Shown: in pieces, positions 11,457 to 33,219 of the stretch
How positions within the stretch are numbered: position 1 is the stretch's first letter
Layout: every line of letters begins with the position of its first letter
Origin: Deltaproteobacteria bacterium RIFCSPHIGHO2_02_FULL_40_28
GTDB lineage: Bacteria; UBA10199; 2-12-FULL-40-28
DNA length: 64,000 nt
Assembly (NCBI GenBank): GCA_001798135.1
Contig: MGRJ01000023.1
Coordinates: 95,239 to 159,238 of the forward strand
Reading direction: 5' to 3'
The notes under the pieces: model-generated
Seen by the model: only the letters and a program-made list of their open reading frames with translations
The model's database searches: none
What the model was told of the DNA's origin: nothing
Translations under genes and position numbers: made by a program

Positions 11457-11508
11457 GATGTTGTTGTTAAGTGGTATGTGAACGCAGAAAGTGAAGTAGG
11501 GTTTGGGG

Positions 11509-12924: not shown

Positions 12925-12925
12925 A

Positions 12926-13627
12926 ATGAATCACACACGAATCATCATCATGTTGTTGGTAATTATATTAACTCCTTTTTTGCTTGCCAACCAGAGTTGC
13001 GAACGCTCAACTACATGGGGAGAAAAGTATTTTACTAAATGGGAATCAGACCATGTGGATATCGACAAAGACACCAAGTGTATTGATTGCCATGATGATA
13101 TTAAAAACACGAAAGTAAAACCATTAAATCATGATGCTACCTGGAAGCGCGAGCATGGAAAATTTGAGTCGCAGAGGTATGGTTTTAAAAACGAAAATGT
13201 TTGCTCCCTTTGTCACACGGAAGCCCAATGCACCAAATGTCATCAACAAGAAGCTCCCCAGCAACATACTGAATTCTGGAAGCAAAGAGGGCATGGGGTT
13301 TTTGTAGGGCTTGATAGGTCTAGTTGTATGACTTGTCATAACGATGCCCAATTTTGCGAACGTTGCCATCGTCTTACGGAACCAAGAAGCCATACCGCAG
13401 GTTGGGGTGCCACGACAAATCGGCATTGCAATAGTTGCCACTTCCCATTGACAGCTGCTGGAGGGCAACAATGTGCGGTATGTCATGCAGGTACGCCATC
13501 TCACAATAGTACACCATCTCAACCTAGTGATGCTTTACATGTTACAGGCGCTAATTGTGCGGGTTGTCATACCTCTCTGCGCCATCCGGATAATGGTATG
13601 GCTTGTACGATTTGCCATACACAATGA
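12926..13627 (+). CDS. Nonaheme c-type cytochrome (MtrA-like role)
   Basis: A 233-aa exported protein with nine CXXCH sites: CIDCH, CSLCH, CTKCH, CMTCH, CERCH, CNSCH, CAVCH, CAGCH and CTICH. The N-terminal hydrophobic segment ends ...LANQSCERS; a cysteine is present there but the lipobox is poor, so a plain signal peptide is more likely. Nine hemes in about 200 residues is enough to span an outer membrane as a wire, as ten-heme MtrA does inside MtrB. It starts 1 bp after the barrel gene stop, so the two should be co-translated. Confidence 0.88.
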   Translation: MNHTRIIIMLLVIILTPFLLANQSCERSTTWGEKYFTKWESDHVDIDKDTKCIDCHDDIKNTKVKPLNHDATWKREHGKFESQRYGFKNENVCSLCHTEAQCTKCHQQEAPQQHTEFWKQRGHGVFVGLDRSSCMTCHNDAQFCERCHRLTEPRSHTAGWGATTNRHCNSCHFPLTAAGGQQCAVCHAGTPSHNSTPSQPSDALHVTGANCAGCHTSLRHPDNGMACTICHTQ

Positions 13628-13667
13628 GTTTTGATGAAAACGGAATGAATAAATATATGGAGTTATT

Positions 13668-15587
13668 ATGATCATTAAAAAACACGTCAGTATTATTATC
13701 GGGTTTCTATTTTTCTCTAGTCTCTTGTTAGCTTGTGGAGGCAGTGTCGATTTAAGCGACAGTGTAAGTGAAAATGAAAGGAGTCAATCCGCAGGCCTCT
13801 ATGGAACTGTTACTGATAACGCAGGAGCCGCTATAGAAAGCGCCACTGTGATTTTGATTCCAGCAGATGATATCAACACAGCGAGGCTGGATATTGCCGA
13901 TTTTTCACCTGATGCCACTGATGATGAACCTTTGGAGGATCTTGTAAACGATACGACAAAGTCTTACCAAACGACAACAACCGATGTAAATGGTGACTAC
14001 AGTTTTGCTTCTGTTACTGAGGACAGCTATTTTATTTATGTAAAACCTGCAGATACCGACACAAGCCATTTGCCCGGTGGAAGTCTTTGCCGTATCTCAC
14101 GGCAATTGACCAACACAGGGTTGAACTTTGACATTGAGATATCCACAAATCCCTCTGCAGCAGCCACTTACGTGGGTTCCTCAACCTGTTTAACCTGTCA
14201 CTCGGACAAAACAACTATTTACAAAACTGGACATTTCAACAGTTTGCATGTTCCCGCCTCTGATAGCGACATGCAGGATGTCTCGGCATTCGATGACTTT
14301 AATGACGCGCTCGACAAGTTTAATGGGACCACAACTGTATATTTCTATGACTATGATTCGACCCGCGGGTTTGATAAATATAAAACAGCCGAAACTAGTT
14401 CTGGTACGGTTAGCTTTCGCATTCGCCTGCTCAAAACTGGTGATACGTATCAAATGGAATTTACCAACGTCAAAAATGCATCCGATCCCAATAATGGAAT
14501 AGTTTATGATGTTGACTTAGCCTACGGCGGTGCTGTTTATAAGCAACGATACCTTACTCGGCTTGCCGTATCGCACGCCGTGCTGCCCCTGCAATATCAA
14601 CAAGAGGGCAGTGAATCAAACTCTCCGCGTACCCGTAAGGTCTGGCGGGATTACCATGGTAGCTACTGGTATAACGAAACCACCCAGCTCTTTACAACTC
14701 CGGCTAATAGCAAGTCCTTTGATAATAACTGCGCTGGGTGTCATTTCACTGGTTATAGCTTAGGAGGTGATAGCACTAACGGATATGCAGCGACTGCAGT
14801 CAGCGACACAGATGGCACCTACGACTTTGATGCTGATGGTGATCTTGATGAAATCAATACAGGTTGTGAGGTGTGTCATGGCCCCGGTTCCGAGCATGTG
14901 GCTAGTGGTGGTGCGACGGTAGCTCTTGGTTTGCTCACACCAGAACGTGAGTCGATTGTTTGTGGTCAATGTCATAGTCGCCCCAAAGGTGCTTTGGGAA
15001 CCGATGTTCCAGATAACGCTGATGGGGATATGATGCGCCCCGGTAATTCACGTAGCTACTTTTTGGAAAACCACACCAACGGCACTCAGTACGACACATC
15101 TTCCAGTGATCTTTACACGGACGTGGATCAAAGCTCGAAGTCCCATCACCAACAATACACTGATTTTATCCGCTCCTCGCTCTACAAAAACAACGAGCAA
15201 TTGGTGACATGTTCGAATTGTCATAACATGCATGGGACGGATAATTTCCGTAGCTTAACAGCCACCACAAGCGATGATGCCCTCTGTACCGATTGTCATC
15301 CTGACAAAACCACAGTTACGGAGCATACAGAAGATAAGCTTGGAACCTCAACAGATATGGGTGCGGTATGCATTGATTGTCATATGAATAAGATTGCCAA
15401 AACGGGTGCTGGTCGTCAGGGTAATGGCAGTTATTGGGAAAATGATGTGACCTCACATCTTTTTTCTGTGGCACGCAAGACAACGTCTATTGTTGCGGGT
15501 CAGACGGTTAGCGATAGTCTGATGTCTATCCCGTATACAAACAGCTGTACCAGTGCTTGTCACGACTCAGATCTTTCGGATGACTGA
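13668..15587 (+). CDS. Multiheme lipoprotein cytochrome with an Ig-like N-terminal domain (candidate surface terminal)
   Basis: A 639-aa lipoprotein (lipobox LLLAC, Cys at about residue 23, then GGS). Residues about 43-135 form a carboxypeptidase-regulatory/SpaA-like beta domain (GLYGTVTDNAGAAIESATV ... DVNGDYSFASV). The rest is cytochrome, with seven CXXCH sites (CLTCH, CAGCH, CEVCH, CGQCH, CSNCH, CTDCH, CIDCH) and a last CX3CH (CTSACH). The layout recalls cytochrome c554-like proteins. As the last gene of the operon with the barrel and nonaheme protein it would be the outer-surface partner, as MtrC is. A ribosome-binding site GGAG precedes the ATG. Confidence 0.88.
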   Translation: MIIKKHVSIIIGFLFFSSLLLACGGSVDLSDSVSENERSQSAGLYGTVTDNAGAAIESATVILIPADDINTARLDIADFSPDATDDEPLEDLVNDTTKSYQTTTTDVNGDYSFASVTEDSYFIYVKPADTDTSHLPGGSLCRISRQLTNTGLNFDIEISTNPSAAATYVGSSTCLTCHSDKTTIYKTGHFNSLHVPASDSDMQDVSAFDDFNDALDKFNGTTTVYFYDYDSTRGFDKYKTAETSSGTVSFRIRLLKTGDTYQMEFTNVKNASDPNNGIVYDVDLAYGGAVYKQRYLTRLAVSHAVLPLQYQQEGSESNSPRTRKVWRDYHGSYWYNETTQLFTTPANSKSFDNNCAGCHFTGYSLGGDSTNGYAATAVSDTDGTYDFDADGDLDEINTGCEVCHGPGSEHVASGGATVALGLLTPERESIVCGQCHSRPKGALGTDVPDNADGDMMRPGNSRSYFLENHTNGTQYDTSSSDLYTDVDQSSKSHHQQYTDFIRSSLYKNNEQLVTCSNCHNMHGTDNFRSLTATTSDDALCTDCHPDKTTVTEHTEDKLGTSTDMGAVCIDCHMNKIAKTGAGRQGNGSYWENDVTSHLFSVARKTTSIVAGQTVSDSLMSIPYTNSCTSACHDSDLSDD

Positions 15588-18774: not shown

Positions 18775-19058
18775 CACAATTGTCCTTTCTGTTGGTTGTC
18801 TATTTGTTTTAGCAATGTGGCACCTTCATTCATTGCCTCGTTTTCCATTTCTTTAAAATCCTCTTCTGAAACCTTATTTAAAGCACGATCCAATTTTAAA
18901 TCCTTGAGGCCAGCTATCACATTGGCTTTGCGAAGAGCCAAATCTTCCTGGAAGGTCGATAATGATATTTCGTCTGTGTCATTTTTGGCAAGAGGTGAAA
19001 ACAGAAACCAGAGCCCTGCTCCAAAAATAATCATGATGGCAATAATTTCAATCGTCAT
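18774..19058 (-). CDS. Short CcmI-like cytochrome c maturation protein
   Basis: A 94-aa protein with one N-terminal membrane helix (IEIIAIMIIFGAGLWFLFSP) and a soluble helical tail whose LALRKANVIAGLKDLKLDRALNK pattern and VSEEDFKEME resemble the N-terminal domain of CcmI. The usual C-terminal TPR domain of CcmI is missing. CcmI presents apocytochrome to the heme ligation complex. It overlaps the end of ccmFH by 11 bp and is coupled to the next gene, consistent with one operon. Confidence 0.65.
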   Translation of the reverse strand: MTIEIIAIMIIFGAGLWFLFSPLAKNDTDEISLSTFQEDLALRKANVIAGLKDLKLDRALNKVSEEDFKEMENEAMNEGATLLKQIDNQQKGQL

Positions 19059-21579
19059 TTTTGTCTGCCTCCTCTTTGAAAAGCTTATAATATGGATCCT
19101 GTACTTCTGTTGCCACTTTTTTTGTCAAAGGGCTTTCTTCCCTGTTTTTTCTCCACTTGTAAATCAGGCAAAAACCACCCAAAAAGGAAGCCACCAAAGC
19201 CAGGGTTGGCAATATAAAACCAATTTCAAAAAAACCACTTCGTGGAGGCTCCATCAGAATATGCAAGCCATATTTGCTGGTAAAAGCTGCCATGATGTCG
19301 TTATCCGTTTTTCCTTCATTCAGCATGGACAAAATTTTTCCACGCTCATTTTTTGCGTAATCGCAGGTGCAGGTTCTGAGTGCCATGCGCACACAACCCT
19401 TACAAGCACATTTTAATTTTTCAGAAATGCTTTTTTGTTTTTCAATCAATGGATCGGTTTTATTGACAGCAAAAGGGTCTTCTCCTGTTTCGAGATGCTT
19501 AAAGGAAGCCGTGTTTGCTGGAGGATTGGATACATCTTCCGCCCTGGCTGTTGAAAATCCTCCGGTCAGATGAAAAAGAATGCTTGTGAGGAGCAACGTT
19601 TTTAATCCACCTTTAAAAATCTTTTTTTGTCCCGGAGTTCCCTTGGGAATAATGACGATAAGGCTGGACACCAAAATGACAATTCCACCAATCCATAAAA
19701 AACTAATCAGCGGGTTGATGGTGGCCCTAAAATCAGCCCTGCCGGTTTTTGTGTTTAAATTGGCAAGAACAAGGTAAACATCCCTGAATGGCGCATGAAA
19801 AATAGCAGCTTCTGTTGTGGGTTGCTCGCTTGATTTGTAAAAAAACCGGGCCGGCTTTAACTCCACAATCTTTTTCTCGTTTTTAAAAACATCCACCCTG
19901 GCTACCAGGGCATCCTTGTTTTCGTCCGAATTGACCACGGGTTCTTGATATACAAAATGGTACTCACCCAAGGTGAATTTATTTCCAGGATTTAATGAAA
20001 AATCAGCCTCATTTTTGAACAGGGTTCCTGCAATGCCAACGAAAATCATGAGAACCCCAAGGTGTACAAGGTATCCTCCGTAACGTCTGTTATTGTTGGT
20101 TATCAGATCCACCATGGCCACCATCAAGGGAAGTTTTTTCTGTTTTTTGATCACAGTGATCCCACGATGAAATTCAAGATAAATAACCCCTACAACAAAT
20201 CCAATAAGTGTTGCTGAAAGAATGGCATACCAATATCCACCAGAAATCGGGAAAAACACACAACCGGATAAAATCCCAAAAAGAAGGGGACCTAAAAGGT
20301 TAGATTTGAGATTGGTCCAGCTGCCTTTTTTCCATGAAACCATGGGACCAAAGCCCATGAGGAAAATCAAAATCAGGCCAATGGGAGCCATCATCTTGTT
20401 GAAAAAAGAAGGCCCAACAGTAATGCGCTGCCCTGTTATCCACTCCGAAAGAGAGGGAAACATGGTTGCCCACATCACACAAAAAGCCCCCACCACCAAA
20501 ATAATATTGTTAAGGACAAAGGCACTTTCCTTGGAAAAATAAGACTGGAGTATGTTTGCTGATTGAAGCTGCGTCCGCCGCGTAACAATCAACCATGTTG
20601 ATACCGCTATGGCAAACAAAATAAAGGCCAAAAAATAAGGCCCCAGGCTAGAACCTGAAAAGGCATGCACCGATTCTACAACACCACTACGAGTGAGGAA
20701 AGTTCCAAAAAGAGTCAGGATAAAGGTGAGGCAAATGAGGGAAATATTCCATACAGCAAACATGCCCCTCCTTTTTTGGATGAGCACAGAGTGAAAATAA
20801 GCCGTGGCTGTTAACCAAGGCATGAAACTGGCATTTTCAACAGGATCCCAAGCCCAAAATCCTCCCCATCCCAACTCCACGTAAGCCCAGGCCGCTCCTA
20901 AAAGATTTCCCATGGTTAGAAAAAACCAGGCTACAAAGGTCCATCTCCTGGAGTCTTCAATCCAAACAGAATCCAGCCGTCTGGTTACCAAAGCAGCAAT
21001 GGCAAAGGCAAAAGGCACTGAAAAACCCGTAAACCCCAAGTACAAAGAAGGGGGATGAATAACCATGGCAATGTTTTGCAGCAACGGATTCAAACCCTTC
21101 CCATCCAACGGAATGGCCCCTTCAACAGGAGTAAAAGGATTATTGGCAAACACAATCAGGGCCAAAAAGAAGAGCACAATCGTCATCATGACTGCATTGA
21201 TGTAAGGCATCCAGTCGGGATTTTTTTTCATGTTCTGAAAAAGAACAATCACCGAATAAAGAGAAACCAACCAAACCCAAAATAATATAGAACCATCCAA
21301 ACCAGCCCAAAGCCCGGCAAATTTAAAAAAGAGAGGGAGTGTGATGTTGGAATAATGTGCAACATACACAATACTAAAATCATTTGTAACAAAGGCTAAT
21401 ATCAGAAAACACACAGACAATGTAAGAAGAGCAAAGGTAAAAATAGTAGCCCTTTGCCCTATTTTTACAAGAGCAGATTTTTGCCACCAATAACCCCCAA
21501 GATAAAAAAGGATGCTTAAAAGTGTTGAAGGAAAAGCCAATGCTAAGGTGTAGCTTCCCAAAATAGATAATGAAATCAA
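19048..21579 (-). CDS. ccmF: Cytochrome c heme lyase CcmF fused to CcmH
   Basis: An 843-aa fusion. Residues 1 to about 650 are CcmF: many membrane helices and the WWD heme-handling motif WGGFWAWDPVENASF near residue 240, with the periplasmic loop and final helices. After a linker, residues about 710-830 are CcmH-like: KLKCACKGCVRMALRTC, DNDIMAAFTSKYG, PPRSGFFEIGFILP and a last helix. Together they ligate heme to apocytochromes and reduce the CXXCH thiols. Normally CcmF (about 650 aa) and CcmH (about 130-150 aa) are separate. The start is TTG at 21579, supported by AAGGAG 7 nt upstream. No ccmABCDEG genes are in the window. Confidence 0.9.
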   Translation of the reverse strand: MISLSILGSYTLALAFPSTLLSILFYLGGYWWQKSALVKIGQRATIFTFALLTLSVCFLILAFVTNDFSIVYVAHYSNITLPLFFKFAGLWAGLDGSILFWVWLVSLYSVIVLFQNMKKNPDWMPYINAVMMTIVLFFLALIVFANNPFTPVEGAIPLDGKGLNPLLQNIAMVIHPPSLYLGFTGFSVPFAFAIAALVTRRLDSVWIEDSRRWTFVAWFFLTMGNLLGAAWAYVELGWGGFWAWDPVENASFMPWLTATAYFHSVLIQKRRGMFAVWNISLICLTFILTLFGTFLTRSGVVESVHAFSGSSLGPYFLAFILFAIAVSTWLIVTRRTQLQSANILQSYFSKESAFVLNNIILVVGAFCVMWATMFPSLSEWITGQRITVGPSFFNKMMAPIGLILIFLMGFGPMVSWKKGSWTNLKSNLLGPLLFGILSGCVFFPISGGYWYAILSATLIGFVVGVIYLEFHRGITVIKKQKKLPLMVAMVDLITNNNRRYGGYLVHLGVLMIFVGIAGTLFKNEADFSLNPGNKFTLGEYHFVYQEPVVNSDENKDALVARVDVFKNEKKIVELKPARFFYKSSEQPTTEAAIFHAPFRDVYLVLANLNTKTGRADFRATINPLISFLWIGGIVILVSSLIVIIPKGTPGQKKIFKGGLKTLLLTSILFHLTGGFSTARAEDVSNPPANTASFKHLETGEDPFAVNKTDPLIEKQKSISEKLKCACKGCVRMALRTCTCDYAKNERGKILSMLNEGKTDNDIMAAFTSKYGLHILMEPPRSGFFEIGFILPTLALVASFLGGFCLIYKWRKNREESPLTKKVATEVQDPYYKLFKEEADKNDD

Positions 21580-21744: not shown

Positions 21745-22083
21745 ATGAAATATGTTTTGATGTTTACTTTTTTGTTTTCCATTGTGGCTGTGAACAATGT
21801 GTATGCAGCAGCAGATACTGCTGCGGGTAAGGCCAAGTTTGATATGCTTTGTGCTGGATGCCATGGCGCAGGAGGCGCAGGAGATGGCCCTGCTGGCCCC
21901 AGCCTGAAGCCGCCGCCCGCCAATCTTACAAAAACCAAACTGGATGATGCTGGTTTGACAAAAATCATTACTGAAGGTGGACCTGCCGTAGGTAGATCTC
22001 CTACCATGGCAGCTTTTGGTTCTTCATTGAAGGCCGATGAAATAGCCGATGTTGTTGCCTACATTAGAACCTTGAAAAAATAA
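21745..22083 (+). CDS. Periplasmic class I monoheme cytochrome c
   Basis: A 112-aa protein with a signal peptide ending ...VYAAAD, one heme site CAGCH in MLCAGCHGAGGAGDGPAGP, a likely axial methionine in SPTMAAFG, and the C-terminal helix ADEIADVVAYIRTL. This is a textbook small c-type cytochrome that carries electrons in the periplasm. AAAAGGAG lies 7 nt before the ATG. It opens the second rightward cytochrome cluster and is separated from the fused porin-cytochrome gene by a long hairpin. Confidence 0.93.
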   Translation: MKYVLMFTFLFSIVAVNNVYAAADTAAGKAKFDMLCAGCHGAGGAGDGPAGPSLKPPPANLTKTKLDDAGLTKIITEGGPAVGRSPTMAAFGSSLKADEIADVVAYIRTLKK

Positions 22084-22097
22084 AAAGGGCGGCAATT

Positions 22098-22132
22098 GGG
22101 TCTGTTGAAAAACGTAGTTTTTCAACAGACCC
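22098..22132 (+). terminator. Perfect 16-bp stem hairpin after the monoheme gene
   Basis: GGGTCTGTTGAAAAAC and GTTTTTCAACAGACCC pair perfectly around a GTA loop. It ends 10 nt before the start codon of the fused porin gene. There is no T tract after it, so it could be an attenuator or an mRNA-stabilising 3' end that lets the monoheme cytochrome be made in excess, rather than a full terminator. Confidence 0.6.
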
Positions 22133-22142
22133 ACAAGGTGTA

Positions 22143-23801
22143 ATGTTTTTTTTAAAAACGAAAATTTCAAAAAAAGTTTATGTTTTTTCTTTTTTGGTTT
22201 TTATTTGTCTGGTTATCAACCTCGTTTTTTTTGGAGATGCATTAAGTCAAACCCCTCCCCCACCATCAGCCAAAATTCATGCTCCCGATTGGATCGTTAA
22301 GCATGGCAAGGAATTTGTAAAAAACAGGGATTTTTGTAAGGCCTGTCACGCCCCTGATCTCACTGGAGGATTTACCGGCATTAAGTGTGATTTGTGCCAT
22401 CTCCTGCCAGCCCATCCCCCTGACTGGAAGGAAATTCACGGCGATAAATTTCTGGAAAACCAGAGTCAGTGTACCCTGTGCCATGGGCGGGATCCTTTTT
22501 CTGGAAAAAAACAGCCATTCACCATGAACTGCACCCGCTGTCATGCTGTAAATGCCGATATTGGTCGGTGGCAGGCAGAATCCCAAACCTCTCAAATGTA
22601 TCTTAGTTTTCTGCAAACAGCTCAAGTACGTGAGGATCGTTTTTCAAAAACGGAAACTGCTACTAACAATTATGCGGGCTTTCATCTGAGTGAGCGAAGC
22701 AAGCAAATAACTGCTTCTAGTCAGGTTCGTTTTACACGGGAGTGGCTGGATGAAAAAGAAAATAATCTGGATATCTATGAGGCCTATCTGGAGAAAGATA
22801 ACCTTTTAAAAAATCATCTTGATGTAAAAGTGGGTCGACGGGGTTTTGGATCCAATGTGGATTATTTTCTCATGGATGGAATGGATCTTACTATCAAGCC
22901 TGCCAAGTTTTTTAATGTAATGGCTTATGCCGGTATTCCCCGTTACATCGAACAAGAAGATATCGATGGTAACCTTGGCTTTGTGTCTGGTTTAAGTTTG
23001 AGAATGAAGGAATATAAATACACCAAGGCCAAAATTGATTTTACTTATCAAAAAAAGGATTTTTCAGCAGGTGGTTTAAACCTGAACGACAAAATGTATG
23101 CGGCAGCCTCGTTATCCAAGGGCATTTCCATTTTTAAGCTTTATGGACTTGGCGAGTACGACCTGACAGAAACTCTTCCAACCGCTCTCACGGCCGGAAC
23201 CGAAATTTATCCTTTTGTCAAAAAGATCAGCTTTCTTTTGGAAGGCAGTTATTTCAATGAAAGCCGCAACGACAATTTTGACAGTATCTTCACCATTTTT
23301 TCGGAAGGGGCTCTTTGGCAGGGGCGCAGTGGATTTGCGGTGAATGTCATAAAAAATCTCTCTCTTTCGGATTATTTTTCTTTTCAGCGCTATGAGGTTT
23401 TGCCCAGCTTATCCAAAAATGGCTACAACAATAGCATGGGTGCCAGTTACCTCTTTAAAAAAATAAAACTTGAAACAGCTCTGAACTACAATTTTTATAA
23501 AAGCTATGGCGGAACCTTGCACGGGTTTTCACTTTCACTTTACGAAGACTGGACACGTGATTTTTATACTAGAGCCTTTGTCGATTTCATTACTTATACC
23601 AAGGTGACCAACAATGATGACAAGGCGTTTGATGCCCTGCTTGAGGTTGGATATCAATTGCGGAGAGGGTTGAGGTTGGCGGCAGTTGCAGAATATGTGA
23701 ACAACAATGTTCGGGAAACAGATTTAAAAGGAACCATTAAACTCAACTATCTATTTGACACCAAGTTTCTGGAATTTGAAAAACAAAAAGAAAAAAAATG
23801 A
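22143..23801 (+). CDS. Tetraheme cytochrome fused to an outer-membrane beta-barrel
   Basis: A 552-aa exported protein. After a signal peptide (VFSFLVFICLVINLVFF) residues about 40-140 hold four heme sites, CKACH, CDLCH, CTLCH and CTRCH, at about residues 65, 82, 110 and 130. From about residue 150 to the end there is no cysteine-histidine motif but a run of amphipathic, aromatic strands typical of a large beta-barrel (for example GRRGFGSNVDYFLMDGMDLT and FSLSLYEDWTRDFYTRAFVD), ending in a basic/acidic tail. A heme domain plus barrel in one chain recalls Cyc2 (one heme), here with four hemes. It should carry electrons through the outer membrane. Confidence 0.85.
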   Translation: MFFLKTKISKKVYVFSFLVFICLVINLVFFGDALSQTPPPPSAKIHAPDWIVKHGKEFVKNRDFCKACHAPDLTGGFTGIKCDLCHLLPAHPPDWKEIHGDKFLENQSQCTLCHGRDPFSGKKQPFTMNCTRCHAVNADIGRWQAESQTSQMYLSFLQTAQVREDRFSKTETATNNYAGFHLSERSKQITASSQVRFTREWLDEKENNLDIYEAYLEKDNLLKNHLDVKVGRRGFGSNVDYFLMDGMDLTIKPAKFFNVMAYAGIPRYIEQEDIDGNLGFVSGLSLRMKEYKYTKAKIDFTYQKKDFSAGGLNLNDKMYAAASLSKGISIFKLYGLGEYDLTETLPTALTAGTEIYPFVKKISFLLEGSYFNESRNDNFDSIFTIFSEGALWQGRSGFAVNVIKNLSLSDYFSFQRYEVLPSLSKNGYNNSMGASYLFKKIKLETALNYNFYKSYGGTLHGFSLSLYEDWTRDFYTRAFVDFITYTKVTNNDDKAFDALLEVGYQLRRGLRLAAVAEYVNNNVRETDLKGTIKLNYLFDTKFLEFEKQKEKK

Positions 23802-24361
23802 GAAAAATCTTTCTAAAATATTTTATTTTTCTGGGATTGGGCCTTGTTACTATACTTGGTGCAGAAGCCCGATGGGAACCAAAACAGGTTAATATACCGC
23901 TTGATCTCTACAACCATACCAAACATTTTGCCCGTTTTGCCCAGTATGCCATTGCGTGCACCATGTGCCACAAAACGCCGGATTCCTTTAACCGCGAAAA
24001 AGTCGACCATATGGGATGCCATTTTTGTCATAACAATGATCAATCCCCAGCTCCCGCAGCCGCCCGATTTAAATGTATCACCTGTCATAAAGATCTTTTC
24101 CAGGTTAAACCAGATAACCACCAGTTAAACTGGATAGACAGACATCAAACTGTTGCCAAACAGGACAAGGATTATTGTTTTAAATGTCACAAAACTTTCT
24201 TTTGTACCGACTGTCATCAAAAAAGAGATTTTGAAAATCAAAGAATGCATACCAGTAATTTTCGCTACTACCATTCCATTGTGGCCAGAAGTAATCCACG
24301 CACCTGCAGTAATTGCCATCAAATGAATTTTTGCAAGGATTGTCATTCTGACAGTGACTAG
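23798..24361 (+). CDS. Heptaheme c-type cytochrome
   Basis: A 187-aa exported protein (signal peptide ...FLGLGLVTILGAEA) with seven CXXCH sites: CTMCH, CHFCH, CITCH, CFKCH, CTDCH, CSNCH and CKDCH, plus extra histidines (YNHTKHF, NHQLNW, DRHQ, MHTSNF) that could be axial ligands. The spacing near the N-terminus (LYNHTKHF...CTMCH) resembles cytochrome c7/c3-type class III cytochromes. It overlaps the fused porin gene by 4 nt (ATGA), so it is co-translated and probably docks on its periplasmic side. Confidence 0.9.
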   Translation: MRKIFLKYFIFLGLGLVTILGAEARWEPKQVNIPLDLYNHTKHFARFAQYAIACTMCHKTPDSFNREKVDHMGCHFCHNNDQSPAPAAARFKCITCHKDLFQVKPDNHQLNWIDRHQTVAKQDKDYCFKCHKTFFCTDCHQKRDFENQRMHTSNFRYYHSIVARSNPRTCSNCHQMNFCKDCHSDSD

Positions 24362-24409: not shown

Positions 24410-24455
24410 GGCAACTTTGTCTATTATTGGCCGATAATATTCATTGGAAGGAAGA

Positions 24456-26849
24456 ATGCATATAAATCATATCGTTTTATATTTTTTTATTTCATTTGTT
24501 TCATTTATTATTGGCTGTTCTGGCGGAGGCACATCTGATTCTGCCTCGAATGAGTTTGCTTCTGTTGATTTAAGTGTTGGCGAGCATGCTGTTTTTCCCC
24601 ATCCCGATCGTTGGGCTGATTCCACTTATTCAGGTTTTCATGGCTACTGGCTCAAGGCTAATGGTTTTAATGTGATTGATACCACCTGCGTGCGTTGTCA
24701 CGACAAAGAATCAACCATATCCAGCGCTAATGCCGGTGGAGGCCCTCCCGGATGCAAATCCTGTCACACTGTTTTTCCACATGTTACAGGCTGGCGAAAT
24801 GGTGTGGATGAGGGCGGACATGGAAAGTATGTGTTGTCTCTCAGGGAGGCGGATGCATCTGTGACTGGGACAGAGGAGTGTCAACAATGTCATGGTGATG
24901 ATCTCAATGGCGGTATAACGGGTGTTTCCTGTAATCAGTGTCACACCGTGTATCCCCACGGAGATGCCACCGCCTGGGCTTTAAAAACAAATCATGGGCA
25001 AGCAGCATTGGAAAACGGGTTTGATGTTTGCCAACGATGTCATGGAGATGATTTTGAAGGGGGCGATACCGGAATTCGCTGCCGCAGTTGTCATGAAGGA
25101 GTATTTCCCCATGGAGTTGATGTAATGCCTGAGGGGGGCATTGATGTTGAGGTTGCGGAGGATGGTAGTAATGACTATGTGTTATCCGATGATGATATGA
25201 TAACCAGTGCTGCAACCGGTGCAGACTACGAAAATATTTACGACAGCGAATGGAGAGAAAAAATAAATCATGGTCGAACGACTATCCAGCTTGGTTACGA
25301 TGTGTGCCGCGGATGCCATGGAAGCGACTTAACCGGTGGGGATGTGGGGGTGAGCTGTTACCAATGCCATTCCTTTGCTCCCCATGTTGATGGCTGGGCC
25401 GAACCAGACGTGCATGGTGTGACAGCAAAAGGAAATGGAAAAGAACTGTGCACGGGATGTCATGGTGAGGATCTTTCTGGAGAAGATACAGGCACGGCTT
25501 GTAACAAGTGCCATATCATTTATCCCCATACGAAAGGAAAAAATGCCACAGCAGCCATTGCTGATATGCCTACTGGGACAGAGTGGAGCGACATTGAAAA
25601 CCACGGTTACTACGCCCTCAACAATGGAACAACCCTGTGTGCCGGCCAATGTCATGGTTCTGACCTGGAAGGAGGCCTTTCTGGGGTTGCTTGTACAACT
25701 GCTTGTCATGCCGTACCCGCGCCACACGATGCAGCCACCCTCCCCAGTTGGGCTGATTCTACCTATCGAAAAAATGCGGGCGAAGCCATTGATACAGACC
25801 ATCCCTTCCATGGAGACTATGCCGAAGGGGCCGCTAAAAGCACTTGCATGGGTTGTCATGGCAATGACTTAACCGGCGGAGATGCCGGGGTTAGCTGTTT
25901 TCAATGCCATGTCTACGCGCCTCATCAAGACTCTGATGGTTTGCCTGATCACCTGAAGGTGTTAAACGATGCAGTTGATAGCAATGGAGACGGCACCTTT
26001 GACCGAATTTGGGATACCGACGGTGATGCTGATGATGTGTGGGTTGCTGATGCCACTGGTTCAAACGGAAAAGACATTGTCCATGCCGCCATTGCTGTGT
26101 CTCTCATGCGCCAGGGCAATATCTCTGAATGCACCCGTTGTCATGGCGAAAACTTTGATCGTGAAGTGGGAGGCATTAAATGCACTAACTGCCATGAAAA
26201 TGGAGTGACTCATACAAGTGCTTCCATGACGATTGAAGGTACAACCTATACTGGCGGCTGGGGGCCCAATATTGGCGGTGGCTCCAACCATGGTACTTAT
26301 TTTTCAACTTACTTCACAGCCAATGATTCGGACGCCTTTTGTTGGGACTGCCATGGATCACCCATCGTATTTACAGATTCAAGTACCACAGGAACTTATT
26401 TTAATGCTTGCAACAACTGCCATGGGGTTTCAGGCCGATCGTCCGATCAAACCCAAGCAAGTTTGGCTGAACAAACGTTCTGCTATTCATGCCATCTGTA
26501 TCCACATCTTGCTCTTGAGACAGAATCCTTAGACAGTGCAGGAGACCCTGTTATTAATAGGCCCGCCTGGGGACCCAACAATTATGCCAAGAATGGAAAT
26601 GAAAACGGATTTTATTGGAGCCATGTTTATACGATTACACGCTGGGCCAACACTGTTGATGAATCGGGAAATTACTATGCTGACGAACCAACAGACCCCC
26701 GTTCTCCCGGCTCCACTGCATCTGCTGTAATTGCCAATACCTGCGGTGGCGGTACAGAAAATAAATGCCATTACGATGGGTATAGGGCACCACGAAACAA
26801 TCTAACCAATTATGGACTTTGTCGGGGTTATTGCCATGTAGACTGGTAA
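24456..26849 (+). CDS. Large multiheme lipoprotein cytochrome, about 20 hemes
   Basis: A 797-aa lipoprotein (signal VLYFFISFVSFIIGC, then GGGTSDSAS). It has 17 CXXCH sites and three CX3CH sites (CAGQCH, CTTACH, CRGYCH), about 20 hemes in all. Most come in pairs as a diheme unit, CxxCHGxDLxGG...GVxCxxCHxxxPH, repeated some eight times, which is also present in the tetraheme domain of the fused porin protein. A C...CH with seven intervening residues (CGGGTENKCH) near the end is probably not a heme site. The ATG at 24456 has GGAAGGAAG just before it; a TTG at 24444 is less likely. It is the best candidate for the outer-surface terminal of this cluster. Confidence 0.9.
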   Translation: MHINHIVLYFFISFVSFIIGCSGGGTSDSASNEFASVDLSVGEHAVFPHPDRWADSTYSGFHGYWLKANGFNVIDTTCVRCHDKESTISSANAGGGPPGCKSCHTVFPHVTGWRNGVDEGGHGKYVLSLREADASVTGTEECQQCHGDDLNGGITGVSCNQCHTVYPHGDATAWALKTNHGQAALENGFDVCQRCHGDDFEGGDTGIRCRSCHEGVFPHGVDVMPEGGIDVEVAEDGSNDYVLSDDDMITSAATGADYENIYDSEWREKINHGRTTIQLGYDVCRGCHGSDLTGGDVGVSCYQCHSFAPHVDGWAEPDVHGVTAKGNGKELCTGCHGEDLSGEDTGTACNKCHIIYPHTKGKNATAAIADMPTGTEWSDIENHGYYALNNGTTLCAGQCHGSDLEGGLSGVACTTACHAVPAPHDAATLPSWADSTYRKNAGEAIDTDHPFHGDYAEGAAKSTCMGCHGNDLTGGDAGVSCFQCHVYAPHQDSDGLPDHLKVLNDAVDSNGDGTFDRIWDTDGDADDVWVADATGSNGKDIVHAAIAVSLMRQGNISECTRCHGENFDREVGGIKCTNCHENGVTHTSASMTIEGTTYTGGWGPNIGGGSNHGTYFSTYFTANDSDAFCWDCHGSPIVFTDSSTTGTYFNACNNCHGVSGRSSDQTQASLAEQTFCYSCHLYPHLALETESLDSAGDPVINRPAWGPNNYAKNGNENGFYWSHVYTITRWANTVDESGNYYADEPTDPRSPGSTASAVIANTCGGGTENKCHYDGYRAPRNNLTNYGLCRGYCHVDW

Positions 26850-26883: not shown

Positions 26884-29800
26884 ATGCTGGAATGTGTGAA
26901 CAAAAAATTAATGGTGCACACAGTAGTTGTTTTACTGAGCCTTGGGCTTTGCCCTGTGCTTTCGTGGGCCCGAAGCATGGATTATCTCAACAAAGATCAG
27001 GTTAATTCCACACTCGATGTCTCCATTATCTCACTCGAAGATATCGATGTAGGCCCTTCGTTTCCAAGCATGGGATCTCATGCAATAGCCCTAGATCGTA
27101 ACGGGTATCCACACATCGTTTATGGGGGCGATAATCTTTATCACACCTACTACGATGGTGCCACTTGGAACACAGAAACCGTGGATAGCGAAAATGGCAC
27201 CGGTGAAGAAGCCACCATCGCCATTGATTCCAGCGGGGCTACGGATGTAATTCATGTTATCTATACCGATTCAGTTAATGCGGATCTTAAATATGCTACC
27301 AATGCTACAGGAAGCTGGGTGATTACTGCAAGCATTGACACATTAGAAGGCACCTCTCTTTCAATGGCCCTTGATTCCTCTGGTTATGTTCATGCCACCT
27401 ACCAGGTTGCCTCTGCTTATCTAACCCATCTTACCAACAGAAGTGGAAGCTGGGTCGATGTAAACATCGATAGTGGAAGTAATGGAACAGGATCACCTAA
27501 CAATATTGTCATTGACTCTTCGGATAACCTGCACGTGATTTATTACGAAGCGCGAGGCAGCGGTAATTATGGTATCAGCTACGCCACCAAGGCTGCGTCT
27601 GGAAGTAGCTGGACTGTTACCGAGTTAAGCTCGGTCTGGCCTGCCTATACCTGGCCTTCGGTTGCACTTGATACAAGTCAAAATTTGCATATGGTCTATA
27701 AAAATGGCAGCACGGGGGGGCTTGATTATCAGACTAAACCTAGCGGTTCTTCCACTTGGGGGGCTGTTACGACAGTTCTTTCCTCTGGGGTGGATGAATA
27801 TGTCAATCTAGTCGCGGATGCCTCAAACAATCTGTATGTGAGTTTCTACAATTCAACTGACGACGACTTAAAATACGTCCATTACGATAATTCAGGAGGA
27901 ATGGGTTGGGATGCAAGCGCCACAACACTTGATTCTAGTGGAGATGTGGGTTCTTACAACGCAATTGTAGCTTCTGGGGGAACGGCTCATATCAGCTATT
28001 ACGATGCAACCAATGGGGCTTTAAAATACACGACGGGGAGTGGTTCTTCTTGGAGTACAAGCACCCTAGCCAATTCGGAAGATCTTGGTCGGTATTCCTC
28101 GATGGTTCTTGATTCTGCCGGCAATATCCATGTGGCCTACTATGAGGCCGATCAAGCTAATCTTAAGTATGCTACCAATACTAGCGGGAGCTGGGTGGCC
28201 GAAACAGTGGATAGTACGGGGGATGTAGGCATGTATGCCTCCTTGGGCATTGATACTCGCGGTTATCTGCATATTGCTTATTATGATGCCACCAATACCA
28301 GTCTTAAATACGCCACCAATAGTAGTGGTGCGTGGGTTTCTAGCACCCTAGACAATAGCACGAACATCACTGGTGAAATAAGCACCTTGATTTTGGATGC
28401 TGCCAACGCGGTTCATATTTTTCATTACTGGAGCTACACCGATTCGGGCACAGGTCTTGGCACCACCGATTTCATGCATATCACCAATGCCAGCGGAGCC
28501 TGGGTTTCAGAAACCGTGGCCAGTAGGGCCTTTACTGTGGATTCCCTGGCCTTTGTCGAACAGGGAGATGTTGATGTTTTCATCGATTCCTCCGGATATT
28601 TTCAGGTTACTTTTTCGGATATCAGTTCTACTGAAGGGTATTACACCTATTACGCCACTAACATGAGCGGAACCTGGGTTTCCGATGATCCGGATACCTG
28701 TGCCGAAAGCGATGAGATCTTCAATGAAATTTTTCAAGACTCCAATGGAGACATTCATATTTTCTTTGTTAGTGCACAGCTCAACTACACCACCAATATC
28801 CCAGGATGGTGGTCTTGTTCCAAGCTGGCAAATCCTTCACCAGTTGATGCCTACTATCCGTCGGCTCTCATTGATGATCAGGATTATTTGTATGTTGCGT
28901 ATCAAGAAACTGATGATGATGAACTGCAGTTTTTAACTTCAATTAGCATGGATGCCAACTACGACTGGAACAAGGCTGTTTTGGTTGATAGTGATGTTAC
29001 ACATGTTTCTTTGCAACAAGATGCTATTGGATATTTTCATGCCACTTTTTACGATGTGGCCAATCAAGATCACAAATATGTCAAGTTTACCATTGATGCC
29101 GATGCAGATGGATCTGAAAATATCGATGATTGCGATGATGGTGTTGCAACAACCTACCCAGGAGCTACAGAAATATGTGGAGACTCGGTAGATAACGATT
29201 GTGATGGTACAACTGATGAACAAGATTCTGGTAGTACCCCTATTACCTGGTACGCCGATGGCGACCGAGATGGTTATGGTACAACATCCCTCACAACCGA
29301 GGCCTGTTCGGAACCCACCGGTTATTCTACTGAGAGTTCAGATTGCAATGATAACGATAGCGCCATCAGCCCCGATGTAGCTGAGGTATGTGTTGATGGT
29401 ATCGATAACGATTGCGATGACAATATCGACGAGGGATGCGTTGGCGAAAGTAACTACGATGACGATGGGGATGGCTATTCTGAAAATGCCGGTGACTGCG
29501 ATGATGCCGATAGTAGCATCAACCCAGGAGCTACTGAAATTTGCGATGGTGTTGACAACGACTGCGATCGTGACCTGGATGATGGCGATGTTGATGTGGT
29601 TGGTGCCTCCATCTGGTATCCCAATTTTGATGGGGATGCATATGGGGCTAGTGGCACCTCCATCGCGGCCTGCAGTCAGCCCAACATGTATTTGTCTGTT
29701 GGAGGGGATTGTAATGACAACAATTCTGCCATCTATCCAGGTGCGGACGAAGTTTGTGGGGACAGTATTGATAATAATTGTGATGATAATGTGGATGAAG

Positions 29801-30102
29801 AAACAGCCTCTTTTTCCATCATTTCTTGGTATCCGGATGGTGATGAAGATGGTTACGGGAGTGCCGATGTGGTTACAGAGACAGAAGTGTTAACAAGCTG
29901 TAGCCAGCCTGCTGCCAATTATGTTGCTGACAATTCAGACTGTAATGATTCCAATCCGGATATTAGTGCGGATGCTGCTGAAATTTGCAGTGACCAAATC
30001 GACAATAACTGTGACGGTGCAATTGATGAAGCCAGTTGCGCTAGAAATAGTGAGTGGAATCTGGATGCTGATTCTGGTGCGGGATGTTCTCTTAGAAGGT
30101 AA
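26884..30102 (+). CDS. Secreted beta-propeller protein with C-terminal MopE-type metal-binding repeats
   Basis: A 1072-aa exported protein (signal VVVLLSLGLCPVLSWA). Residues about 50-740 hold a dozen or so repeats of roughly 45 residues with HIAYYDATNxxLKYATN and SGSWV, a beta-propeller-like fold. Residues about 745-1060 hold four to five MopE-type units (for example YPGATEICGDSVDNDCDG and DGDRDGYG), a putative metal-binding motif named after the Methylococcus copper protein MopE. It ends abruptly in SGAGCSLRR. GGAG lies 8 nt before the ATG. It follows the 20-heme gene by 34 bp, so it is probably an extracellular partner; copper binding or adhesion is inferred only. Confidence 0.8.
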   Translation: MLECVNKKLMVHTVVVLLSLGLCPVLSWARSMDYLNKDQVNSTLDVSIISLEDIDVGPSFPSMGSHAIALDRNGYPHIVYGGDNLYHTYYDGATWNTETVDSENGTGEEATIAIDSSGATDVIHVIYTDSVNADLKYATNATGSWVITASIDTLEGTSLSMALDSSGYVHATYQVASAYLTHLTNRSGSWVDVNIDSGSNGTGSPNNIVIDSSDNLHVIYYEARGSGNYGISYATKAASGSSWTVTELSSVWPAYTWPSVALDTSQNLHMVYKNGSTGGLDYQTKPSGSSTWGAVTTVLSSGVDEYVNLVADASNNLYVSFYNSTDDDLKYVHYDNSGGMGWDASATTLDSSGDVGSYNAIVASGGTAHISYYDATNGALKYTTGSGSSWSTSTLANSEDLGRYSSMVLDSAGNIHVAYYEADQANLKYATNTSGSWVAETVDSTGDVGMYASLGIDTRGYLHIAYYDATNTSLKYATNSSGAWVSSTLDNSTNITGEISTLILDAANAVHIFHYWSYTDSGTGLGTTDFMHITNASGAWVSETVASRAFTVDSLAFVEQGDVDVFIDSSGYFQVTFSDISSTEGYYTYYATNMSGTWVSDDPDTCAESDEIFNEIFQDSNGDIHIFFVSAQLNYTTNIPGWWSCSKLANPSPVDAYYPSALIDDQDYLYVAYQETDDDELQFLTSISMDANYDWNKAVLVDSDVTHVSLQQDAIGYFHATFYDVANQDHKYVKFTIDADADGSENIDDCDDGVATTYPGATEICGDSVDNDCDGTTDEQDSGSTPITWYADGDRDGYGTTSLTTEACSEPTGYSTESSDCNDNDSAISPDVAEVCVDGIDNDCDDNIDEGCVGESNYDDDGDGYSENAGDCDDADSSINPGATEICDGVDNDCDRDLDDGDVDVVGASIWYPNFDGDAYGASGTSIAACSQPNMYLSVGGDCNDNNSAIYPGADEVCGDSIDNNCDDNVDEETASFSIISWYPDGDEDGYGSADVVTETEVLTSCSQPAANYVADNSDCNDSNPDISADAAEICSDQIDNNCDGAIDEASCARNSEWNLDADSGAGCSLRR

Positions 30103-30107
30103 ACTTT

Positions 30108-32900
30108 ATGCAACTTTCAAAATCCTTGAAACTTCTGACTGGCCTTGGTTTTTTTGTGTTGTTGTTTTCACCTGTGGCCCACGGTGCTGATATTGCCGTG
30201 GATAATACCTTGGATGTTCTTGATGGCACTGACAGTAGTTGCTCACTTCGCGAAGCGATCATCAATGCCAACAATGATACCGCCACTTACACGGATTGCA
30301 CAGCGGGTTCAGGCACAGATACTATCATTCTCCCTGCGGGAACATATTCCTTAAGCATGTCAGGGATCGACGAAGAATACGCTGCGACTGGCGACCTGGA
30401 CATCCGCTCCAGTATGACGATTCAGGGGGCTGGCTCTGGTTCAACAATTATCGACGGCGGTGGTTCCTCAGGAACCCTGCAAGATAGAATTTTTGACATC
30501 GTCTCTGGAGGGCTTACTATTAATTTCGAAGATTTAACCATCCAAAATGCCTATTTTACATCCTCTAATTACTGTGGCTCTTCTTCTTCAGTTGGAGGAG
30601 CTGGCATCTGCAATCATGATAAAAACAACACTGTTACCCTGACTGATTCTGTTGTTCAAAACAACACGATTAGCACTGGTGCATGGATTTATGGGGCGGG
30701 TATCCTTTTTAGTTCTTCATCCACTTCTGCCTCTCTTACTCTCACCAATACTGTAGTTACGGGTAACCAGGCGACCAGTTCAAGTGCTTCCCAGATCTGG
30801 GGAGGGGGCATCTATGTAAGCAATGCCTCCCTGCATCTTGTTGATTCCACCGTTAGCTCAAATAGTGCTGAGGTTACCTACTCCAGCTCCTCCAGTTATG
30901 CCCTTGGAGGCGGTATTCATGGGTATTGGTATGCCACTATTGAAATTGAAAACTCAACCATCAAAGACAATGGGGTTATCAGCAAAAATTCTTCCAGTTC
31001 TTCTAGCCACAACCCGGGAGCCTCTGGTGGAGGAGTTTACATTTACGGATTGAGCGATTTAGACATCACAGGGTCCACAATCAGCGGCAATTCCACATCA
31101 ACAAGCAATGGCAGAAAATCATCAGGAGGAGGGCTTGCGTTATCTGGAGATACTGTCAATATTTTCAACAGCACCATTGCCGATAATGATTCTATATGCG
31201 GTACCACTGCTGCATGCAGTTATTCCGCTTATGGGGCCGGTGTTGCTGTTACTTCGGGAACTATCAATATTTCCAACAGCACCATCGCAGACAACACATC
31301 CAGCATCTACAGTAGTGGAAGCGCTACGGCAGGTGGTCTCTATCGATCAGGGGGAACAGTCAATATTGGCAGCTCCATTATTGCTGACAATACAGCGGTC
31401 ACTTCTAACGCAAACTGTTCTGGAACAGTGGCTACAGCTACCTCAAGCTTGATCGAAGGCACATCAGAATGCACCATTACGAGTGGTTCTGTGCTTACGG
31501 ATGATCCAAACTTTGAGGAGCTTCTAGCTGACAATGGTGGTCCAACGTACACCATAGCCATCAATGAAACCAGCCCGGCCGTCGATACCGGGAACTGCAC
31601 GTCCATCGTTAATCTCGACGGGGTTACCGGTTATGACACGGCTACCAACGATCAGCGGGGTTTTACACGAAACGATGGCGATACAGCCTGTGACATGGGG
31701 GCTTATGAATTCATCGAACATGAAACAAACGATTGTGATGATAGTGAAGATAATGATGACGATGGGGTTACTGATGACGACGATGCTGATTGCGGTTCAA
31801 CAGAAGCTGATTGTACCGATGGGATAGACAATGATGGTGATGGGTCTGACTGTGACGACGCTAGTTCTGACTGTGATTATTATTATCAATGCGGAGGTAC
31901 AGAAACAAGTTGCTCCAATTCGATCGATGATGATGTTGATGGCGCAACAGATTGTGATGATTCTGATTGCACTAGTAGTACCGACTGCACCGTGGATGAC
32001 CTTGATAGCGATGGCTATGACGAAACCGTAGATTGCAATGACAATGAGGCCAGCGTTAGCCCGGGGGCTACAGAAACCTGCAATAATGTCGATGACAATT
32101 GTGATGGAGCCACTGATGAGGGGTTTGATTCAGACGGTGATGGAACTACAGACTGCAATGATACTGAGGAGTGTGATGGAATCGATAATGATGGTGATGG
32201 TTCTATAGACGAAGGGGTTACCAGCACTTACTACCAGGATGCAGATGGTGATGGTTACGGTGATGTTACCGCAACAACGGCGGCTTGTTCTCTTCCAGCA
32301 GGTTATAGTGATAATGGGGATGACTGTAATGATACAGATGCAAGCGTGAGCCCTCTTGGGGTTGATACTTGCGATGGGGTCGATCAGGATTGTGATGGTA
32401 CCGACACATCGTGTACAACAGGTGAAACCGTTGAAACAGAATGTAACGATGGGCAAGACAATGACATCGATGGTCAAGCCGATTGTATTGATGCTGATTG
32501 TAGTGCAGATACAGTTTGTATTGATGATGAGTGTTCCTCCTCAGAATGCCAGGATAATGATGCCGATGGTTATGCTGAGGCTGACAACGATTGCAATGAC
32601 AGTAATTTTTCTATCCATCCTGGGGCCACTGAAACCTGTGGAGATTCCAAGGATCAGGATTGTGATGGTTTAACAGATTGTGATGATACTGATTGCATTG
32701 ATAATCCTCAGTGTGCCAGTACAACATCAGGAGCTACCAACACGCCAGAATCAGATTGCAGTAATGGGCTTGATGATGATGCAGATGGCAGTTTGGATTG
32801 TTCTGATAGTGATTGTTTTTCCAGTACTGCCTGTACGGTCACAGTTGATGCAAACAGTGCCGATACTGGTCAAGCTGCTGGCTGTAGTTTGGTTAGGTAA
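30108..32900 (+). CDS. CSLREA-type right-handed beta-helix protein with MopE-type repeats
   Basis: A 930-aa exported protein (signal LLTGLGFFVLLFSPVAHG). The N-terminal segment DSSCSLREAIINANN is the CSLREA domain found on many surface or secreted proteins. Residues about 80-530 are a Ser/Thr/Asn/Gly-rich parallel beta-helix with polymorphic-outer-membrane-type repeats (for example GGGIHGYW, NISNSTIADN). Residues about 540-910 are aspartate/cysteine-rich units related to MopE (CDGIDNDGDGSIDEG, YYQDADGDGYGD). It ends GQAAGCSLVR, much like the C-terminus of the neighbouring propeller protein. Starts 5 bp after the upstream stop. Probably cell-surface; function unknown. Confidence 0.8.
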   Translation: MQLSKSLKLLTGLGFFVLLFSPVAHGADIAVDNTLDVLDGTDSSCSLREAIINANNDTATYTDCTAGSGTDTIILPAGTYSLSMSGIDEEYAATGDLDIRSSMTIQGAGSGSTIIDGGGSSGTLQDRIFDIVSGGLTINFEDLTIQNAYFTSSNYCGSSSSVGGAGICNHDKNNTVTLTDSVVQNNTISTGAWIYGAGILFSSSSTSASLTLTNTVVTGNQATSSSASQIWGGGIYVSNASLHLVDSTVSSNSAEVTYSSSSSYALGGGIHGYWYATIEIENSTIKDNGVISKNSSSSSSHNPGASGGGVYIYGLSDLDITGSTISGNSTSTSNGRKSSGGGLALSGDTVNIFNSTIADNDSICGTTAACSYSAYGAGVAVTSGTINISNSTIADNTSSIYSSGSATAGGLYRSGGTVNIGSSIIADNTAVTSNANCSGTVATATSSLIEGTSECTITSGSVLTDDPNFEELLADNGGPTYTIAINETSPAVDTGNCTSIVNLDGVTGYDTATNDQRGFTRNDGDTACDMGAYEFIEHETNDCDDSEDNDDDGVTDDDDADCGSTEADCTDGIDNDGDGSDCDDASSDCDYYYQCGGTETSCSNSIDDDVDGATDCDDSDCTSSTDCTVDDLDSDGYDETVDCNDNEASVSPGATETCNNVDDNCDGATDEGFDSDGDGTTDCNDTEECDGIDNDGDGSIDEGVTSTYYQDADGDGYGDVTATTAACSLPAGYSDNGDDCNDTDASVSPLGVDTCDGVDQDCDGTDTSCTTGETVETECNDGQDNDIDGQADCIDADCSADTVCIDDECSSSECQDNDADGYAEADNDCNDSNFSIHPGATETCGDSKDQDCDGLTDCDDTDCIDNPQCASTTSGATNTPESDCSNGLDDDADGSLDCSDSDCFSSTACTVTVDANSADTGQAAGCSLVR

Positions 32901-32901
32901 G

Positions 32902-33219
32902 ATGGTTATGGAAATGTTTCGATATTTTTTATCCTTTATTTTTTTTGTTGCTCTCATTTCCTGTGGGAGTGAAGCCGATGACAATGGTGAGGATTTTGGC
33001 AATATTCTCGACTCTCCTTCCAGCCTTGTTCTGACTGAAGATGAGCATGTGTATGGGTGGGGGCGTTCCGATTGTTTGATGTGTCACAACATCAACAACA
33101 TCCATCTCCAAAATAGAACTGATGTCACAATCGATATGGAGGAGATTCAGGATCAAGTAGCCGAAGAAGGCGAGTCGATTTGTATGGATTGTCACGGATC
33201 CAATGGTACCACCGAATAA
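32902..33219 (+). CDS. Small diheme c-type lipoprotein
   Basis: A 105-aa lipoprotein (lipobox LISC, at about residue 21, then GSEADD) with two heme sites, CLMCH and CMDCH. It starts 1 bp after the stop of the beta-helix gene; the ATG at 32902 has AGG a few bases upstream, and later ATGs at 32908 and 32914 are possible. It closes the second cytochrome cluster and overlaps the convergent radical SAM gene by 28 bp. Likely an extra electron-transfer lipoprotein of the same system. Confidence 0.82.
   Translation: MVMEMFRYFLSFIFFVALISCGSEADDNGEDFGNILDSPSSLVLTEDEHVYGWGRSDCLMCHNINNIHLQNRTDVTIDMEEIQDQVAEEGESICMDCHGSNGTTE

Follow-up and report, generated by a model that had tools for sequence, protein, structure and literature searches.

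Conduits of the porin-cytochrome type are built from separate chains, and a porin's capture of its cytochrome is, to our knowledge, little understood. In MtrAB(C) of Shewanella and in MtoAB/PioAB, a barrel is combined with a separate multiheme cytochrome and a surface cytochrome; MtrAB pairs a barrel of 26 strands with the decaheme MtrA, and the two are not fused. The porin-cytochrome (Pcc) systems, such as OmbB/OmaB/OmcB of Geobacter and the Group III loci, have a heme-free porin for which 18-22 strands have been published, an adjacent small multiheme cytochrome and a large multiheme lipoprotein cytochrome. Fused cytochrome-porins appear in the open-access literature as the monoheme Cyc2 and Cyc572, in which an N-terminal c-type heme domain precedes the porin in one chain (one heme and 16 strands in Cyc2). 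In addition, GM18_3465 from a pcc locus of Geobacter sp. M18, a porin predicted to have ten hemes in the loops between 21 predicted strands, was put forward by Shi et al. (2014, PMC4245776) as the first porin with multiple hemes. A first-pass annotation of the DNA studied here took Cyc2 to be the only fused exception; Cyc2 is indeed a precedent, but Cyc572 and the predicted ten-heme GM18_3465 also exist. The open-access literature yielded no Pcc porin with a multiheme domain fused to its N-terminus. What is new in the window (the whole stretch of 64,000 nucleotides from Deltaproteobacteria bacterium RIFCSPHIGHO2_02_FULL_40_28 that was analysed) is a Pcc porin carrying an N-terminal multiheme domain on its own chain.

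The fused gene and its neighbours

The fused gene, its parts and the co-oriented genes that follow it are:

22143-23801, + strand, single intact open reading frame for a fused tetraheme cytochrome and predicted 22-strand outer-membrane barrel, 552 aa
22143-22250, + strand, Sec signal peptide, about residues 1-36, without lipobox (read from the sequence; AF2 helix at 10-35)
22278-22412, + strand, diheme repeat 1, residues 46-90, HxxxWxxxHG...CXXCH...CXXCH, with spare His 46 and 54
22413-22547, + strand, diheme repeat 2, residues 91-135 (ending just past the final CXXCH), with spare His 91 and 99
22548-22589, + strand, short linker, residues 136-149, from the final CXXCH to strand 1
22590-23750, + strand, beta-barrel domain, residues 150-536, 22 predicted strands (from AF2, fold matches and amphipathicity)
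23798-24361, + strand, heptaheme c-type cytochrome, 187 aa, 7 CXXCH, with signal peptide, overlapping the fused gene by 4 nt
24444-26849, + strand, 20-heme lipoprotein cytochrome, 801 aa, 17 CXXCH and 3 CX3CH, lipobox ...FIIGC
26884-30102, + strand, large secreted protein that contains five putative metal-binding repeats of MopE type, linked to the conduit by position only
30108-32900, + strand, secreted repeat protein of 930 aa, its Asp-rich repeats resembling the preceding ones by eye, likewise linked by position only
32908-33219, + strand, diheme lipoprotein, 103 aa (homology read from the common N-terminal sequence)

The first-pass annotation had described four CXXCH motifs in the first 140 residues, some 400 cysteine-free residues of amphipathic strands behind them, and a 7-heme and a 20-heme protein next door, all of which we find. 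The motifs start at residues 65, 82, 110 and 130 (n = 4, within residues 65-134), while shuffled versions of the protein contain 0.003 on average and 2 at most in 20,000 shuffles; the final cysteine is residue 133 and the following 419 residues are free of it. Placed exactly between the signal peptide and strand 1, the heme domain consists of two diheme repeats of about 45 residues, to whose four CXXCH motifs heme would be attached. Its only non-motif histidines are 46, 54, 91 and 99, one per heme, and these are probably the distal ligands, as expected for bis-His ligation. AF2 modelled this domain with a pLDDT of 23-40 (at most 40 in each 10-residue block).

The usual gene order in the phylum is a large multiheme lipoprotein, the barrel, a heptaheme cytochrome (~185 aa) and a diheme lipoprotein (~100 aa), with a tetraheme instead of the heptaheme in a few loci; outside the phylum, a cytochrome of 5-14 hemes comes after the barrel in nearly every case, and the range over all surveyed relatives is 4-14 hemes. 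The heptaheme of the window, whose signal peptide suggests a periplasmic location, is thus the conserved small-cytochrome partner that nearly all relatives encode downstream of the barrel. It is 37-43% identical to the heptahemes beside un-fused barrels, including that of a Desulfurobacterium-assigned genome, and is better conserved against these un-fused loci than the barrel itself (26-31%). The 20-heme lipoprotein is the presumed cell-surface subunit. In relatives, the heptaheme gene is followed by one for a small 2-heme lipoprotein; the diheme lipoprotein is a homologue of that protein whose gene, in the window, is displaced to the end of the cluster. Two large secreted repeat proteins (26884-32900, + strand) are encoded between the 20-heme and diheme lipoprotein genes, in the same co-oriented run.

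Upstream of the cluster, a CcmF/CcmH-like protein of c-type cytochrome maturation (843 aa, recognised by eye) is encoded at 19048-21579 on the - strand, and a monoheme cytochrome c gene (21745-22083, + strand) lies directly before the cluster. The 59-nt gap between the latter and the fused gene holds a perfect 16-bp inverted repeat, GGGTCTGTTGAAAAAC, at 22098-22132, which has 13 matches in the genome with at most one mismatch, compared with 0 for the reversed control. A second, un-fused conduit-like set is found at 11503-15587 (+ strand), with a 473-aa Cys-poor barrel-like protein, a 233-aa nine-heme protein and a lipoprotein of 639 aa that has seven CXXCH and a stretch resembling MtrC/MtrF. 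With an hhalign probability of 41% and an E-value of 2.8e-4 across 92 columns, the barrel of this set is possibly distantly related to the fused one; a related genome, G004, has a similar un-fused set (L099).

The barrel and its affiliation

For the cysteine-free half of the protein, structure prediction supports an outer-membrane barrel of 22 strands, a result in line with the barrel of at least 16 strands for which the first-pass annotation had suggested looking. AF2 placed 22 strands in residues 150-536, most at pLDDT 50-80, in a model of low overall confidence (mean pLDDT 53.7) that was folded from a shallow alignment of 7 rows, the dodecaheme relative described below being left out. For an un-fused orthologue (L080, from Deltaproteobacteria bacterium RIFCSPHIGHO2_01_FULL_43_49) 22 strands were predicted as well, with moderate confidence (mean pLDDT 70.1). 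In un-fused orthologues, the strand that is aligned with strand 1 of the fused barrel comes immediately after the signal peptide. The alternation of inward and outward hydropathy along the strands was stronger than in any of 5000 shuffles, whether computed for the family or for the window sequence by itself. The top Foldseek and VIA matches, at low TM-scores, were exclusively membrane beta-barrels, nearly all from bacterial outer membranes, so that the soluble fold envisaged as the alternative was not borne out. In a test of whether inward-facing residues had diverged more in fused than in un-fused barrels, the difference was -0.02 for the window protein and the same for the un-fused L035.

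MtrB of the Mtr complex (6r2q_B) aligned along the entire barrel, with Z 15.8 for the orthologue model (349 residues) and Z 13.7 for the window model (350 residues). Membership in the MtrB/PioB sequence family was nevertheless rejected: the barrel fold agrees, but a Pfam scan returned no family for the barrel half, no similarity to solved MtrB appeared among the PDB sequence matches, and 22 predicted strands stand against 26-28. More generally, a sequence search of solved structures gave no relevant match to either the barrel or the heme domain.

The affiliation comes from a different direction. The profile of the barrel family (A2) matches the barrel of the Desulfurobacterium-assigned genome at 8.8e-34; this relative would be Desulfurobacterium thermolithotrophum and the matched barrel, from its position, the pcc porin. 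The pcc locus of that organism belongs to Group III (Shi et al., 2014, PMC4245776). Judged by sequence homology, the fused barrel is thus assigned to the Group III-type Pcc family, while its likeness to OmbB is one of description. The 22 strands predicted for the window protein and L080, at modest confidence, fall within the 18-22 trans-outer-membrane strands of Pcc porins; the heptaheme corresponds to the adjacent periplasmic c-type cytochrome of 5-14 hemes, and the lipobox-bearing 20-heme protein to the multiheme outer-membrane lipoprotein of the cluster. Pcc porins are heme-free, however, and because four CXXCH are present in the same chain the fused protein is a variant rather than a standard Pcc porin. 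Since the window retains all members of the set, the tetraheme domain appears to have been added to a complete Pcc set without taking the place of any of them.

Cyc2 and Cyc572 share the order of parts with the fused protein but differ from it in heme number (one in Cyc2, four CXXCH here) and strand number (16 against 22 predicted). Cyc2 proteins carry the motif AXPXFAR[Q/K][T/Y] upstream of their CXXCH (PMC8406198). This motif is absent before the first CXXCH of the fused protein, where the sequence is HAPDWIVKHGKEFVKNRDFCKACH, and profile comparison gave no similarity between the barrel and a Cyc2-like ORF of a related genome. Membership in Cyc2 was rejected on motif, heme count and strand count. 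GM18_3465 resembles the fused protein in being a predicted multiheme porin of one chain in a pcc locus; by description, its inter-strand hemes contrast with the N-terminal heme domain found here. As a separate observation, the related genome G030 encodes a Cyc2-like ORF, IPAWARKYNADCSMCH (L030:3573-4823, - strand), near its operon for an un-fused Pcc barrel; the phylum may therefore have porin-cytochromes of both kinds.

The fused relative and the place of the hemes

The same two-part architecture, for which a homologue search had been proposed, occurs in a second genome of the same order and another family (G001), in a protein of 725 aa with 12 CXXCH in six repeats followed by the same barrel. 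The two proteins are 47% identical in an alignment that runs unbroken from repeat to barrel across the junction; in the tree they group together as a clade supported at 100/100, which is consistent with a single origin. The fusion of a multiheme domain and a barrel in one polypeptide, as read in the first-pass annotation, is therefore confirmed as real and inherited in two families. The barrel was present in 20 of the 46 genomes of the phylum (one class) that were searched, and fused only in the window genome and G001. Across the domain it was found in 42 of 385 genomes, with every match outside the phylum in an open frame of less than 500 aa and 0 CXXCH in those frames that were examined; apart from the fused pair, every relative found inside or outside the phylum is a barrel without heme. 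A contig search with the fused protein as query gave no match. Twelve barrels together formed an alignment too divergent to serve as query, and five closer barrels were used, which led to five named loci.

Standard outer-membrane insertion puts both ends of a barrel in the periplasm, and by the standard geometry formula a barrel of 22 strands has a C-alpha radius near 20 Å; a tethered relay and a plug in the lumen are therefore both possible arrangements of the heme domain. The reading that we favour, at about an even chance, is that of a Pcc porin with a gained N-terminal heme wire that acts as a tethered periplasmic relay while the heptaheme still occupies the barrel. In a Pcc-type electron conduit across the outer membrane, the protein would serve as the porin subunit, to whose N-terminus a bis-His tetraheme domain was added; its 22-stranded barrel would lie in the outer membrane with both ends toward the periplasm. 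The heptaheme would plug this barrel, like MtrA in MtrB, and would give electrons to the 20-heme surface lipoprotein or receive them from it. Held at the periplasmic mouth by a linker of about 14 residues, the tetraheme would be a built-in relay that either lets periplasmic carriers exchange electrons with the heptaheme more rapidly or sets where they dock for this exchange, and the tether of G001, with twelve hemes, would span more of the periplasm.

It is possible, though doubtful, that the tetraheme instead sits inside its own barrel, which would make the protein a multiheme counterpart of Cyc2, with the tetraheme itself as the trans-membrane wire, and leave the heptaheme only as periplasmic donor or acceptor. 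The heme domain comes immediately before strand 1 on its short linker, the radius leaves space for a small tetraheme domain, and the heme of Cyc2, with the same order of parts, is thought to plug the pore opening (PMC8406198); yet the well-conserved heptaheme of the un-fused barrels is retained next door, the twelve hemes of G001 exceed one lumen, and the prediction of 22 strands with or without fusion gives no sign of remodelling for a different plug. We consider it unlikely that the tetraheme (or dodecaheme) domain lies inside its own 22-strand barrel, one chain being a complete multiheme wire across the outer membrane with its heme number set by repeat duplication. The first-pass annotation had proposed a distinct single-chain conduit, a view that fits poorly with the heptaheme and the 20-heme and diheme lipoproteins still encoded nearby and with un-fused orthologues that are Pcc porins; a complete conduit in one chain is possible, but the fused protein is probably not one. 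One point for the tethered relay is that the extension from four to twelve hemes suits a tether of variable length better than a plug in a lumen of fixed size.

A heme domain threaded outward through the barrel like an autotransporter passenger, to serve as an extra surface cytochrome, seems improbable. The repeats do resemble those of the large, presumed surface lipoprotein cytochromes, and the linker could cross the barrel if extended. Heme attachment occurs in the periplasm, however, and threading a multiheme domain that has already folded would be difficult; moreover, a presumed surface lipoprotein is already encoded separately (24444-26849). An autotransporter (type V) was also rejected as a class, with 22 predicted strands against about 12 and no autotransporter family match in Pfam. 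That the strand-rich half is no membrane barrel would accord with the modest AF2 confidence for the window protein and the orthologue, but is hard to credit given 22 amphipathic strands, top matches to membrane beta-barrels only and a Pcc operon context.

Origin and meaning of the fusion

Internal repeats of large lipoprotein cytochromes are similar to the fused repeats, and those that build the neighbouring 20-heme protein are among them. A comparison of the heme domain with possible tails of an ancestral upstream cytochrome matched internal repeats of many large cytochromes and no particular C-terminal tail. At two loci, L044:6334-10515 and L035:6900-9605 (+ strand), an upstream multiheme cytochrome and the barrel are in frame and 0-3 nt apart, with effectively one stop codon between them. 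A plausible route to the fusion would be loss of the stop codon together with deletion of the inner signal peptide, because the upstream cytochrome gene is in the frame of the barrel, 0-6 nt away, in four of the nine un-fused relatives checked. The same proximity could also point to an assembly or annotation error, a recent stop-loss artefact or a decaying gene, but this is very improbable, and a stop-loss artefact was rejected, since the fused form recurs in G001 with its frame intact, no internal signal peptide and identity maintained across the junction.

Where annotation handles porin and cytochrome as distinct genes, such fusions will be overlooked; the fused protein may also offer a compact part for engineered electron conduits. 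For the family itself, a porin that carries its own hemes, in repeat-based numbers of four in one protein and twelve in the other, would provide a natural test of heme placement in the conduit and of the reach of the tether.
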